Below, piece by piece: positions 33,650-54,900 of a DNA stretch of 64,000 bases. The DNA comes from Actinomycetes bacterium (lineage in GTDB: Bacteria; Actinomycetota; Acidimicrobiia; Acidimicrobiales; Ilumatobacteraceae). A program made the position numbers and the translations under genes. Every line of letters starts with the position of its first letter. The stretch's first letter is position 1. Where the stretch lies: NCBI GenBank assembly GCA_029782355.1, contig JAKOUY010000023.1, positions 62,001 to 126,000 on the forward strand, in the 5' to 3' direction. The notes beneath the pieces are model-generated. The model worked only from the letters and a program-made list of their open reading frames with translations. It did no database searches and was not told the origin of the DNA.

Positions 33650-34558
33650 ATGCGACTGGGGACGATGAGCAACGCCGTCAACGACGGCTCGATCGACGAC
33701 GTGCTGGCGGAGGCCCGCCAGGCCAAGGAACTGGGGGCCCACACCTTCTGGGCCCCGCAGATCTTCGGCCACGACACGCTGACCGTCCTGGCCGTGGTGG
33801 CCCGCGAGGTGCCCGGCCTCGAGTACGGCACCGCGGTCGTGCCCACCTACCCCCGCTTCCCGGTGTCGCTGGCCCAGCAAGCCCTGACGGTGTCCCAAGC
33901 CACCGGCGGCCAGCTGGCCCTCGGCATCGGCCTGTCGCACCGGGTCGTCGTCGAGCAGATGTGGGGGATGTCGTACGACACGCCGGTCCGGCACATGCGT
34001 GAGTACCTGTCGGTGCTGATGCCCCTGCTGGAGGGCAAGCCGGCCATGCACGAGGGCACCGAGTTCAATGTGCATGTCGGGCTGTCGGTCAGCGGCATCG
34101 CCCGGCCCTCCGTCGTCGTGGCTGCACTGGGCTCGCAGATGCTGCGCGTCGCCGGGCAGCTGGCCGACGGCACCTCGACGTGGTGCGTCGGTCCACGCAC
34201 GCTCGCCGATCACATCGTGCCGACGATCCGCCAGGCCGCCGCTGATGCCGGGCGGCCCGAGCCGCGCATCGTCTGTGCCCTGCCGGTGTGCGTCACCGAC
34301 GACGTCGATGCCGCCCGGGCGCGCGCCGCCAAGGTCTTCGCCGTGTACACCAACCTGCCGAGCTACCGGGCGATGATGGACAAGGAGGGCGTCGCCGACG
34401 CCTCCGGCCTGGCCATCGTCGGCAGCGAGGACGAGGTCCGCCAGCAGATCGCCGAGCTGGCCGACATCGGGGTCACCGACTTCAACGCCGGCGTGTTCGC
34501 CAGCGACCCGGAGCTGGTCGCCCGGACGGCTGCGGTGCTCGCTGAGTGGGCCGAGTGA
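33650..34558 (+). CDS. LLM-class F420-dependent oxidoreductase
   Basis: This 302-residue TIM-barrel protein belongs to the luciferase-like monooxygenase family that uses coenzyme F420. Typical segments are KELGAHTFWAPQIFGHD at the N-terminus, GLEYGTAVVPTYPRFP and LALGIGLSHRVVVEQMWG. The substrate is unknown. The following amidohydrolase starts within its stop (GTGA), which suggests that the two act together on one compound. Confidence 0.9.
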   Translation: MRLGTMSNAVNDGSIDDVLAEARQAKELGAHTFWAPQIFGHDTLTVLAVVAREVPGLEYGTAVVPTYPRFPVSLAQQALTVSQATGGQLALGIGLSHRVVVEQMWGMSYDTPVRHMREYLSVLMPLLEGKPAMHEGTEFNVHVGLSVSGIARPSVVVAALGSQMLRVAGQLADGTSTWCVGPRTLADHIVPTIRQAAADAGRPEPRIVCALPVCVTDDVDAARARAAKVFAVYTNLPSYRAMMDKEGVADASGLAIVGSEDEVRQQIAELADIGVTDFNAGVFASDPELVARTAAVLAEWAE

Positions 34559-36231
34559 GGGATCTGCTGGTCCGCGGCGGCACCGTCGTCGACGGCAGCG
34601 GCGCGGCGCCGCAGCGCGCCGACGTGCGCGTCCGCAACGGGGTGATCGCCGAGGTCGGACCGGACCTGCAGCCCGACGGCGAGCGGCTCCTCGATGCTGG
34701 CGGGGCCCTGGTCACCCCGGGGATCATCGAGACCCACACCCACCTCGACGGGGCGATGTGGTGGAACCCGGGGCTCGACCCGCTGCCGGCCTACGGCAAC
34801 ACCTCGCTCGTGTTCGGGTACTGCGGCAACTCGCTGGCCCCGCTGGCCGGCCCGCAGCGCGACGAGATCCTCGACCTGCTCGGATTCCTCGAGGACCTCC
34901 CGGTGCGGGCCCTGGCCGAGTTGCCGCCGTGGAACTGGGAGCGCTGGCCGGAGTACCTCGACGCCGTCGCCACCCAGCCCACCGCCGTGCACGTCGGCGG
35001 ATACCTCGGGCACCTCTCGCTGCGCACCTATGTGATGGGTCCGGCAGCGTGGGAGCGGGAAGCCACGGCCGACGAGATCGGCCGGATGGTGGCGGTGCTC
35101 GACGAGGGTCTCGCTGCCGGGGCTCTCGGGTTGTCGATCAACCACTTCGACCGCGACCGCACCCTGCGTCCCGTTCCCGGCTTCTTCGCCGCAGACGACG
35201 AGTACGGCGCGCTGATCGACGTGGTGGCTCGCCACCCGCGCCGCACCGTGCAGGTCATCACCCGGTTCACCGACCTCGACCACGCCCTGGCCGACACCGA
35301 GCGCTTCGCCCGGCTGTGCGCTGCCCGCGGCGTGCGCTGCCAGTGGCCGGGGATCCCGACGGCCCTCGAGCAGGCCGGTCACGCCGAGCCCACCGCCGCG
35401 CTCCAGCAGCGGCTGCGCGCCGAGGGCGCCGACCTGTGGCCGAACATCGTCTTCAAGCCGCTGGAGCCGTTCTTCGGCTTCGAGCGCTCGATCGCCTTCC
35501 AGCGCGTCCCGGCCTGGAACGAGGTGCTGAACGGCCCCCCGGACGCCAAGCTGGCCACCCTGGCCGACCCGGCCTGGCGCGCTCGCGCCCGCCACGACTG
35601 GGACCACCGGGTCCGCGCCGCCACCTCGCGCCTCGACCGGCCCCACGAGCTGATGCTGGCGATCTCCGAGACCGGCGCCGGGCCGCTCGGCATCAGCTTG
35701 GCGGACTACGCCGCGCAGACCGGCCGGCACCTGTCGGACGCCCTGGCCGACTGGGTGGTGGCCAACGGCATCGGCTCGTCGCTGGTCGGCGCGCCCGGCG
35801 CCCTGGACGAGGAGGCGGTCGTCCGCCATCTGCGTGACCCGCACTCGCTGACCAACATCAACGACAGCGGCGCCCACCTCCAGCTGTTCTGCGGGGCCGG
35901 GCAGAACGTCTACCTGTACACCCACTACGTGCGCGACACGGGCCAGCTCGCCATCGAAGAGGCCGTCCACCTGCTCACCGGGCGCACGGCCGACTTCTTC
36001 GGCATGGCCGATCGGGGGCGCATCGCCCCCGGGCTGCTCGGCGATCTGAACGTCTTCGCCCTCGACGAGATCGAGCTGCGCCAGGAGACCCGCGTCCACG
36101 ACGTGCCCTTCGGCACCTGGCGGTTCACCCGCCCGCCCGCCGGCTTCCGCGCCACGATCGTCGCCGGCGAACCAACCTGGCTCGACGGCGCCCCCACCGG
36201 CGCCCTCCCAGCCACCCCCATCCGCCCGTAA
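34555..36231 (+). CDS. Amidohydrolase family 3 protein, D-aminoacylase-like
   Basis: A 558-residue metal-dependent hydrolase similar to N-acyl-D-amino-acid deacylases. The first metal site is IIETHTHLDGAMWW, a conserved YCGNSLAP follows near residue 90, and NINDSGAHLQLFCG supplies the catalytic aspartate. GTG at 34555 overlaps the LLM stop; a GTG nine bases earlier is possible. In actinobacteria such genes often lie beside LLM oxidoreductases, but the shared substrate is not known. It ends in a Pro-rich tail running into a C-rich tract. Confidence 0.87.
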   Translation: MRDLLVRGGTVVDGSGAAPQRADVRVRNGVIAEVGPDLQPDGERLLDAGGALVTPGIIETHTHLDGAMWWNPGLDPLPAYGNTSLVFGYCGNSLAPLAGPQRDEILDLLGFLEDLPVRALAELPPWNWERWPEYLDAVATQPTAVHVGGYLGHLSLRTYVMGPAAWEREATADEIGRMVAVLDEGLAAGALGLSINHFDRDRTLRPVPGFFAADDEYGALIDVVARHPRRTVQVITRFTDLDHALADTERFARLCAARGVRCQWPGIPTALEQAGHAEPTAALQQRLRAEGADLWPNIVFKPLEPFFGFERSIAFQRVPAWNEVLNGPPDAKLATLADPAWRARARHDWDHRVRAATSRLDRPHELMLAISETGAGPLGISLADYAAQTGRHLSDALADWVVANGIGSSLVGAPGALDEEAVVRHLRDPHSLTNINDSGAHLQLFCGAGQNVYLYTHYVRDTGQLAIEEAVHLLTGRTADFFGMADRGRIAPGLLGDLNVFALDEIELRQETRVHDVPFGTWRFTRPPAGFRATIVAGEPTWLDGAPTGALPATPIRP

Positions 36232-36305
36232 CCCCACCCGCCCGCGCCGGCCCGCCCGGGCCGTCCCGCCCCGCCCCGCCCCGGCCGGCCGGGCCGGCCC
36301 CCTAC
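36232..36305. repeat. C-rich low-complexity tract
   Basis: About 70 bases made almost only of C and G with repeated CCCGCC/CCCCG units. It adjoins the left terminal repeat of the DUF559 element, and a G-rich tract adjoins the right one. Confidence 0.8.
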
Positions 36306-37129
36306 GCCGTTCTGTGGAGGGACAGAACGCGACGTGCGGTTCTGTCCCTCGCCGATTGGGCGGCCAGCGCTTCGCGGACGGTGGCGATCACCGCACTCGG
36401 GCGCTCGACGACGTCGAGGTAGGTGAACTGCACGACCACGAAGCCGTCGAGCTGCATGCGGGTCAGCCGTTCGGCGTCGACCTGCATCTGCATCACGGTT
36501 CGGTGGAAGCGGTAGCCCAGCAGCTCCACGACGAGCTGGGTTCCGGCGAACCGGCAATCGACCCGGATGATGCTGCGGCCGCGACGACCGAGCACCTGCT
36601 GGCGCTGCGGCTCGGGGAGCCGGTGCGCTCGGAGAAGGCGAAGGAATTCGCGCTCCAGCCAGGACTCGGTCCCACGATCCAGCTCCACGCCGGCCAGTGC
36701 TTCGAGCACCCGTGGGATCCCCGCTCGGCCACGTGTGCGGAGTGCGACCAGCCGACGGTGGAGGAAGCCGACGCTGGCATCGCCCGATGCGGTCGCAGAG
36801 TACAGCAGCTCGCGGAGGTACTGAGAGGAGACCGACGGGGCCAGATCGATGATCGTCCTCGTCGGGGTCGTCGCCAGCACTCCTTCGAGCTCGCACAGAT
36901 CGACGCGATCGAGCGCGGCCGTGGCGTGGACCACGTGGCCGACCCGGCTGACTCGCCGGCCCCGGTCCACCAACACGTGGAACGGCGGCCGAAGGGTGTA
37001 GCCGTCGAAGCCGTGCAGCGCTGCAGCCGTGTCCCGACAGGCGACGACTCGCCCGCCGATGTCGTCGAGCAGCGCGGCGAGCGCGTCCCACTGGCGGGCG
37101 GTCTGGCGGAGTGGCGGCTGGCGGGTCAC
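36302..37129 (-). CDS. DUF559/AbiEi-family nuclease-like protein (element A)
   Basis: The 275-residue protein ends in a DUF559 domain, a Vsr/PD-(D/E)XK-like fold: Asp in IRVDCRF, Glu in LVVELLGYRFHR and a late FVVVQFTYLDVVE strand (about residues 190-245). The middle part resembles the body of AbiEi-like proteins (TRTIIDLA), but the N-terminal winged helix seen in the second copy at 53971 is missing or very short. The GTG start has only a weak GAGAG site. The C-terminal ~15 residues are read from the left terminal repeat, and the stop is two bases outside it. Whether it cuts DNA, moves the element or acts as an antitoxin is unknown. Confidence 0.75.
   Translation of the reverse strand: MTRQPPLRQTARQWDALAALLDDIGGRVVACRDTAAALHGFDGYTLRPPFHVLVDRGRRVSRVGHVVHATAALDRVDLCELEGVLATTPTRTIIDLAPSVSSQYLRELLYSATASGDASVGFLHRRLVALRTRGRAGIPRVLEALAGVELDRGTESWLEREFLRLLRAHRLPEPQRQQVLGRRGRSIIRVDCRFAGTQLVVELLGYRFHRTVMQMQVDAERLTRMQLDGFVVVQFTYLDVVERPSAVIATVREALAAQSARDRTARRVLSLHRTA
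36306..36350 (+). repeat. Left terminal inverted repeat of the DUF559 element
   Basis: It matches the complement of 37182-37226 at 43 of 45 positions. Inside it, GAGGGACAGAAC (36317-36328) pairs perfectly with GTTCTGTCCCTC (36339-36350) across a 10-base loop. It encodes the last residues of the DUF559 gene. Confidence 0.85.
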
Positions 37130-37174
37130 GCTCTCAAGAGGTCACCGTCCGGCGGACATCGGCATCCGACGCGA

Positions 37175-37226
37175 TTCTGTGGAGGGACAGAACCGCACGT
37201 CGCCTTCCGTCCCTCCACAGAACGGC
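37175..37226 (-). repeat. Right terminal inverted repeat and 48-base palindrome of the DUF559 element
   Basis: The terminal repeat proper is 37182-37226. The larger palindrome 37175-37222 has 18-base arms (TTCTGTGGAGGGACAGAA against its complement, 17 matches) and a 12-base centre. The centre, GAACCGCACGT, resembles that of the unrelated repeats around the second DUF559 gene. Confidence 0.85.
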
Positions 37227-37318
37227 GGGGGGCGGGGGGTCGGGGGTCGGGGGTCGGCGGGGGTCGGGGAGAAACGGCGGCGGCGGGGGGAAAGGCGGGC
37301 GGGTTGGGGCGGTGCGGG
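37227..37318. repeat. G-rich tract with short GGGGGTC repeats
   Basis: The stretch is almost purely G with several GGGGGTC units (about 37235-37268). It fills the space between the right terminal repeat and the fumarase stop and mirrors the C-rich tract on the other side. Confidence 0.8.
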
Positions 37319-38998
<1,680 letters not shown>

Positions 38999-53970: not shown

Positions 53971-54900
53971 GTGTCGCCTCGTCTCTGGAAGCCTGCGGTG
54001 GACGCCTGGTTCGCCGCCCACCATGGAGCCATCACCACCCAGACCATGCGGAACCTCGGCGCCTCGGCGTCGACCATCGCCCGGATGGCCCAGCGCGGTG
54101 ATCTGGCGAGAATCGCCGGCGGTGTCTATCGCCACCCGGCCACCCCACTGACCGACCTGCCGTTGATGTCGGCGGCCTGCCAGCGCTTCGCCGATGTCAT
54201 GGTCGGGTTCACGTCGGCGTGTTCGGAGTGGGGACTGCGCGGGATCCCGGATTGTGGCGTCCGCATGCTGGCGCCCCACGGGGTGACGCCGGAGATCGAG
54301 GGGGTCATCGTCCATCGCAGTCGGCGGATCGATCCCGTCGATCGGGTCGAGCGGGTCGACGGGATCCGCCTCACGAGCCCGCCGCGCAGCCTGTGCGACG
54401 CCGCCGACCTGCTCGGGATCGCCGCATGTTCGTCCGCGCTGGAGCAGCTGATCGGCAACTACTGCACGCTGGCGACGGTCGTCGACACCTTCGTGCGCCT
54501 GGCGCACCCGCAGCGCCCCGGCACCCGGACCATGCAGGCCGTGCTGCGGAGCCGGCAGGCGTGGCGGTCGGCCTTGCAGAGCGACCTCGAGCGGCGGGTG
54601 CTCGACGAGATCCGCCGGCAGCACCTACCAATGCCGGTACCACAGTTTCGGCTGCGGCTGCCCGACGGAGCCGACATCCACCTCGACTTCGCCTGGCCCG
54701 AGGCGCGGGTGGCCGTCGAGGTCGACCACCCGGCGTGGCACGCCGGCGCGACGCAGTCCCATCGCGACAAGCACCGAGACCGCAAGGCGGCGACGGTGGG
54801 CTGGTTGACGGCGCGGGTCACCGACCTGGACGTCCGCAGTGGCCTTCCCGAGGCCATCGCCGACCTCGCAGCGATCCTGGCGCTCCGCTCCGCCGCCTGA
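53971..54900 (+). CDS. AbiEi-type/DUF559 nuclease-like protein (element B)
   Basis: The 309-residue protein has an N-terminal winged helix of the AbiEi antitoxin type (about 8-55, HHGAITTQTMRNLGASASTI and GGVYRHP), a middle AbiEi-like part (LTSPPRSLCDAADL) and a C-terminal DUF559 domain with Asp in IHLDFAWPE, Glu in VAVEVDHPAWH and a late GWLTARVTDLDV strand. This arrangement suits a DNA-binding protein with a possible nuclease end. The GTG start has a GGAGGG site four bases upstream, and TACGGT at 53917 may be its -10. No AbiEii-type toxin gene is adjacent, so a toxin-antitoxin role is doubtful. Confidence 0.83.
   Translation: MSPRLWKPAVDAWFAAHHGAITTQTMRNLGASASTIARMAQRGDLARIAGGVYRHPATPLTDLPLMSAACQRFADVMVGFTSACSEWGLRGIPDCGVRMLAPHGVTPEIEGVIVHRSRRIDPVDRVERVDGIRLTSPPRSLCDAADLLGIAACSSALEQLIGNYCTLATVVDTFVRLAHPQRPGTRTMQAVLRSRQAWRSALQSDLERRVLDEIRRQHLPMPVPQFRLRLPDGADIHLDFAWPEARVAVEVDHPAWHAGATQSHRDKHRDRKAATVGWLTARVTDLDVRSGLPEAIADLAAILALRSAA

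Follow-up and report, generated by a model that had tools for sequence, protein, structure and literature searches.

The window, a stretch of 64,000 nt, covers bases 62001-126000 of contig C1 in the source genome, here called G000 (3.79 Mb in 40 contigs). It carries an element at 36305-37227 in which a single gene, encoding a predicted DUF559 nuclease, lies between inverted repeats, and the neighbouring genes match the Pfam families amidohydrolase and fumarase. The features of this locus are the following:

36246..36304, no strand: C-rich flank on the left side, with a 60-nt G-C skew of -0.30
36302..37129, minus strand: DUF559 nuclease gene (275 aa/codons), with a predicted AbiEi-like part that lacks the N-terminal winged helix, and a predicted EDxHD/PD-(D/E)XK-type domain
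36305..36350, no strand: left terminal repeat, with an arm at 36310-36327, a loop containing CGACGT at 36330-36335 and a truncated second arm at 36340-36350
37175..37222, no strand: right terminal palindrome, 48 nt long, with arms of 18 nt each; 37182-37227 match the left end in inverted orientation
37228..37286, no strand: G-rich flank on the right side, with a 60-nt G-C skew of +0.62

The two ends are inverted copies of each other over 46 nt with 2 mismatches (44/46; 36305-36350 and 37182-37227), where the original prediction had given 43 of 45 bases and coordinates that are within one base of ours. This pair of arms is nested in an 82-nt pair, which is 79% complementary and takes in the C-rich and G-rich flanks, and the flank-to-flank inverted match reaches a score of 40. 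Each end can also fold on its own, as had been proposed: the left one forms a perfect 12-bp hairpin (36317-36328/36339-36350) and the right one is part of the 48-nt palindrome, whose 18-nt arms contain one mismatch. The gene, read on the minus strand from 37129 to 36302, runs into the left repeat, which encodes the final residues of the DUF559 protein, and this too agrees with the first reading of the locus. At the window locus no AbiEii nucleotidyltransferase partner was found inside the element. Rfam gave no match anywhere in the window, and a DNA match was not found in plasmids. A clean empty site for the element in genome G009 was considered and rejected, as G009 is missing the amidohydrolase gene as well as the element (window 34489-37392 compared with L118) and a luciferase-like gene directly adjoins the fumarase gene; because the amidohydrolase gene is absent together with the element, the difference is not specific to the latter.

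The identity of the lone gene was confirmed by Pfam, where the window protein matches DUF559 (PF04480) with an E value of 3.8e-5 and 24 bits, compared to a curated cut-off of 20.6. Over 43 aligned proteins Pfam assigned DUF559 to 36/43, AbiEi_4 to 19/43 and MTES_1575 to 17/43. PADLOC labelled 42/43 of them as AbiEi, a homing endonuclease model was matched by 4/43, and NCBIfam gave just two weak hits with single members each. In an alignment of 11 proteins most relatives have an N-terminal winged helix, which is missing in the window protein and in L016. The proposed AbiEi-like DUF559 protein is corrected in one point, as the window protein does not have the winged helix of most of its relatives. 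Fifteen columns are invariant among the 43 aligned proteins, including E159, D191 and E202, which, judged from this conservation, form a candidate nuclease centre with a putative catalytic role. The window protein was modelled with a pLDDT of 92.8 and its relative L066, from Desertimonas flava SYSU D60003, with 93.9, and the fold matches come from L066. This model matches AbiEi (6y8q, E 1.7e-4), Rv2827c (1zel, E 1.5e-4) and the catalytic domain of the homing endonuclease I-Bth0305I (3r3p, E 1e-3, TM 0.74-0.75 on target); as modelled, the relative resembles both AbiEi and I-Bth0305I. No HUH Y1 (IS200/IS605-like) transposase was found among the Pfam matches, which are DUF559, MTES_1575 and AbiEi, or among the folds, which are those of AbiEi and the homing endonuclease. 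In seven pairs of relatives, to which the window gene does not belong, dN/dS is 0.05-0.22, and the genes of these relatives are therefore maintained under purifying selection. The window also contains a second AbiEi/DUF559-like gene at 54046-54900 on the plus strand (MTES_1575, E 1.6e-5, below the family cut-off), and the flanks of this gene (L010) show no inverted match at a score of 12.

To what extent related genes are flanked in the same way was scored at loci from several sets of genomes. The protein search gave matches at E <= 1e-10 in 36 of 61 genomes, and by hand count the flank-to-flank inverted match is at least 12 in 20/34 loci, with sequences that differ between the elements. Another 55 loci came from named genomes, whose titles give Acidimicrobiia, Acidimicrobiaceae, Ilumatobacter or unplaced Actinomycetota, with Desertimonas flava as the one isolate; 40/54 of these loci reach 12 (hand count; L055 is invalid as it lies at a contig edge). 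For the comparison with controls 45/55 loci were scorable, 10 being at contig edges, and a few near-identical loci were kept in. A match of at least 12 was found for 36/45 DUF559-related genes compared to 5/92 neighbouring ORFs, and a match of at least 15 for 30/45 compared to 1/92, while 10/45 genes scored below 13. With the same scoring, 26/45 relatives reach at least 18 and none of the 92 control ORFs does, and the repeats of the window are therefore not due to chance. In G000 itself, three DUF559 genes each have a unit of their own palindrome type on both sides. Units stand on either side of a gene, and often one touches or overlaps the 3' end. At loci without the winged helix (the window element and nine others assigned by reading, viewed together with L054), many ends have by eye the form P-loop-P, where P is itself a dyad, e.g., TTCTGTG..CACAGAA, and the loop often contains ACGT.

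In a sample of the phylum, DUF559 is present in 74/197 genomes, and 30 loci were taken from these; Caulobacter vibrioides, used as a control genome, also has a DUF559 match. Nine of the 21 longer loci exceed all 60 shuffles (L196, L197, L198, L202, L207, L208, L211, L215 and L217), of which L207, L208 and L211 share their class or order with the window, and the other 12/21 longer loci of this sample are not above their own shuffles. The short DUF559 loci L188-L195 were scored at their own start, and 3/8 exceed all 60 shuffles, with scores of 18 for L189, 14 for L192 and 22 for L195 and a shuffle maximum of 11 each. L195, a short DUF559 gene between copies of TGTTTCACGTGAAACA, was set aside as evidence, as we take this palindrome to be the parS consensus and its copies to be parS sites. 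The link to palindromes may reach DUF559 genes without an AbiEi part (L189, L192). Both of these are short stand-alone genes from one genus with CCCCTCAAGGGG-like palindromes on both flanks, and L192 has three more copies of CCCCCCTCAAGGGGG on one side.

The palindromes are also dispersed as units away from the genes. A search with the window motif gave 14 matches, 4 of them inside the element, compared to 1 for the control, and across genomes this motif was found 10 times in G000 (2 in the element) and 0-2 times in each of the 60 others. The motif of the L007 gene is present at 46 places in G000, compared to 0 for the reversed control, in a search that at <=1 mismatch also picks up the similar L008 type; when read out, these sites are mostly whole 41-nt hairpins. 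A survey of 37 regions of G000, for which the gene caller was trained on five window genes, yielded 34 units, of which 30 are solo and 4 border the L007 and L008 genes, whereas 7/37 regions had no two-armed unit at the criteria applied. The solo units comprise 15 of the L007 type, 8 of the L008 type and 7 of the window type, and with these last seven sites the repeats are, as expected from the original prediction, not confined to the window locus. In the single-contig genome G011 the L021 motif occupies 43 places, some of them beside the gene, with 0 for the reversed control; it was found 5 times in G033, which is of the same genus and has no protein match at 1e-10, and 0-2 times in the other 59 genomes. 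The units of this type in G011 are largely doublets, frequently directly behind a stop codon, and the gene itself stands between two such doublets. The motif of the L044, L046 and L047 genes is present at 49, 46 and 41 places in the carriers G061, G066 and G068, respectively, own gene flanks included, and in non-carriers once in G063 and not at all in five other congeners and in G000. The proposed relation between palindromes and DUF559 genes is borne out, as the families follow particular DUF559 genes across G000, G011 and G061/G066/G068.

The 34 units of G000 lie between same-direction genes in 19 cases, between convergent genes in 6 and between divergent genes in 3, and 6 are inside called genes. 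Divergent placement accounts for 3/28 classified units and 22/131 gene pairs at the same loci, which is at most suggestive of an avoidance of divergent pairs. A C-rich 5' flank together with a G-rich 3' flank was found for 79/90 units from G000, G011 and G061 (19/28 in G011), compared to 17-21% of random places and 10/27 unit-free intergenic midpoints; as a speculation, repair may have left such flanks behind. The units were not taken for simple terminators, because they share their arms over 20-28 copies.

For the G061 units with both flanks located in G020 (within 635 kb), all sites (4/4) are without the unit in G020. At three of them G020 has 16, 38 and 103 nt between the aligned flanks, compared to 169, 262 and 264 nt in G061, and at the fourth G020 has 1.7 kb of other DNA. 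At the sites displayed, the additional DNA of G061 exceeds the unit in length and contains C-rich and G-rich stretches; the difference may be a gain in G061 or a loss in G020. The suggested check for empty sites in relatives gave these four sites without a solo unit; for the window element the comparison with G009 gave no clean one. Among G061, G066 and G068 no polymorphic unit was found, as the unit is there in every comparison that had both flanks in one locus, in regions that were chosen around units and thereby favour shared sites. Likewise, four close pairs of similar loci show no gain or loss of a unit, and their one indel of at least 18 nt (38 nt) is free of hairpins. In the comparison of G011 with G033, about 1.2 kb in G033 stands for a whole 11.2 kb holding three solo sites, which is therefore uninformative on single units. 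Separately, a difference of ~900 nt between L272 (around 1033) and L288 (3382-4287) and L300 (646-1504) ends at the edge of a G061 solo unit, as if a rearrangement had stopped at the palindrome.

The inheritance of the gene can be followed at a chaperonin site (Pfam Cpn60), where a DUF559 gene is present in G020, G061, G066 and G068 and absent in G067 and G062; the left flank in G067 is 94% identical to that of G020. The gene-less loci L152 and L153 at this site have hairpins of other sequence, with scores of 13 and 15 compared to shuffle maxima of 9 and 8. The DUF559 genes of G020 and G061 are in the same place and have unrelated palindromes. The type belonging to G020 has one solo unit in 635 kb, and its family is therefore small. 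Over the 39/43 elements with a hairpin, the similarity of the proteins and that of the palindromes are correlated with a Spearman coefficient of 0.158, a value reached by 2/2000 permutations. Since same-site orthologues have unrelated palindromes and this correlation is weak, the palindromes change faster than the gene, apparently turning over at both ends together, and a rapid shift of specificity for the palindrome would be required. In its behaviour the gene is closer to a resident locus than to a mobile element. An independent inheritance of gene and repeats applies in part: the gene and the repeat sequence are not always inherited together, but a pair is present each time.

The association of the genes with palindromes, the dispersal of the latter, their lineage specificity, the maintenance of the genes and the absence of units at four congener sites are direct observations. 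We read them, with a probability of roughly 0.6, as a partnership of protein and palindrome that acts in the manner of REP/RAYT without belonging to it. Such a partnership on a different nuclease fold had been suggested from the window, and is supported by the flanking pairs, the dispersed gene-linked families and the resemblance to AbiEi and I-Bth0305I. We also favour, a little less firmly, that this is an undescribed class of palindrome generators, in which a DUF559 nuclease, usually fused to an AbiEi-like module and unrelated to RAYT, makes and spreads its own lineage-specific REP-like hairpins; it would be common in Acidimicrobiia and probably wider, represent a second, independent invention of REPs and be a candidate agent for REPs that have no known transposase. 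According to this proposal, the host-maintained gene would encode a DUF559 nuclease of the EDxHD/Vsr-like type joined to a DNA-binding module that resembles AbiEi. This module would bind the imperfect palindromes of its own family (about 41-51 nt), as a duplex inverted repeat or an extruded hairpin, since AbiEi binds an inverted repeat according to the parts of PMC7319586 covered here. The nuclease would then nick or cut at the palindrome, and repair or copying would place new units elsewhere, mostly at intergenic sites. Comparison shows that the gene has a unit or doublet on each side and at several sites is inherited in place; its palindromes are replaced rapidly, so that each gene lineage has families of its own. 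Within this picture, the window element is a member with few copies and a protein that lacks the winged helix.

An AbiEi-like fold (L066 model; PADLOC label in 42/43) would also suit a DNA-binding regulator that has the palindromes as operators and a nuclease domain of secondary importance. AbiEi binds inverted repeats and autoregulates through them (PMC7319586, in the parts covered), and divergent placement is not clearly avoided. However, the units flank the gene on both sides, often at its 3' end, and most of those in G000 are between same-direction or convergent genes or inside genes. They are also long, with partly conserved loops, form doublets in G011, and are absent as whole units at the G020 sites, and we consider such a regulon unlikely. 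Nearly the same holds for the idea that the palindromes are spread by something else, either an unseen RAYT or a host process, and that DUF559 genes just happen to be trapped between them often. The DUF559 protein was not seen to move anything, and RAYT-REP pairs are known from the covered parts of PMC3733652 and PMC8266576, but three DUF559 genes of one genome each have their own palindrome type, neighbouring genes are rarely so flanked (5/92), and congeners that lack the cognate gene have few or no palindromes of its family.

It is quite improbable that DUF559 is the transposase of an ordinary insertion sequence, of which the whole 0.9-1.3-kb element moves and the solo units are remnants. 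The long terminal inverted repeats are those of an insertion sequence and the gene at the chaperonin site is present in some relatives and absent in others, whereas no target-site duplication is apparent by eye at the window element and the listed units, and G000 contains no near-identical gene-bearing copies. The window gene is single-copy, its next paralogue being 38% identical, the solo units outnumber the gene copies, and same-site orthologues and low dN/dS point to a resident gene. Folds of the AbiEi and Vsr/homing types are known from defence and repair, and the PADLOC matches, including the 4/43 to the homing endonuclease model, would fit a nuclease that polices palindromes or foreign DNA, with the chromosomal palindromes as self marks or tolerated targets. 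This explanation is very improbable, as the window element has no partner gene and the multiplication of units alongside the gene would stay unexplained.

The favoured protein-palindrome pair shares with REP/RAYT systems (REPtrons; TnpA_REP, GTAG REPs) an enzyme gene between inverted palindromes of the same kind, lineage-specific palindromes that are dispersed in the genome of the enzyme's host as single units and doublets, and a placement of units mostly between same-direction or convergent genes. In difference to REP/RAYT, the protein is AbiEi-like with an EDxHD/PD-(D/E)XK domain and no HUH transposase was found, the units are 41-51 nt long, and GTAG or CTAC is present in the unit or its 12-nt flanks in only 1/81 units (0/27, 1/28 and 0/26). 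CGTC REPs, according to the covered parts of PMC3733652, are dispersed palindromes apparently without a dedicated transposase; they resemble our units in their dispersal and differ by stems of 8-9 bp, loops of 4-5 nt, a terminal CGTC and mostly alphaproteobacterial hosts. With the AbiE type IV toxin-antitoxin system the proteins would share, by analogy, the AbiEi-like fold (L066 model, PADLOC) and probably the binding of inverted repeats, whereas here a lone gene encodes a fused nuclease domain and the window element has no AbiEii. The EDxHD/Vsr-like I-Bth0305I (3r3p) is similar in the modelled nuclease fold and the conserved acidic residues, but the genes described here lie between palindromes in intergenic DNA, and no intron or intein was seen.

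Novelty was judged on open-access literature, including the covered parts of PMC3733652, PMC8049555, PMC8266576 and PMC7319586. Among the matches listed from open-access sources, which hold no preprints, no paper links DUF559 or AbiEi-DUF559 proteins to palindromic repeats, and the single kind of enzyme that the literature covered connects with REP palindromes is the HUH RAYT. If an unrelated enzyme indeed shares this genomic signature, the REP strategy arose twice. It would also suggest a function for genes that currently carry the label AbiEi or DUF559, and open a practical route to how short palindromes arise, get copied and get replaced as a set.
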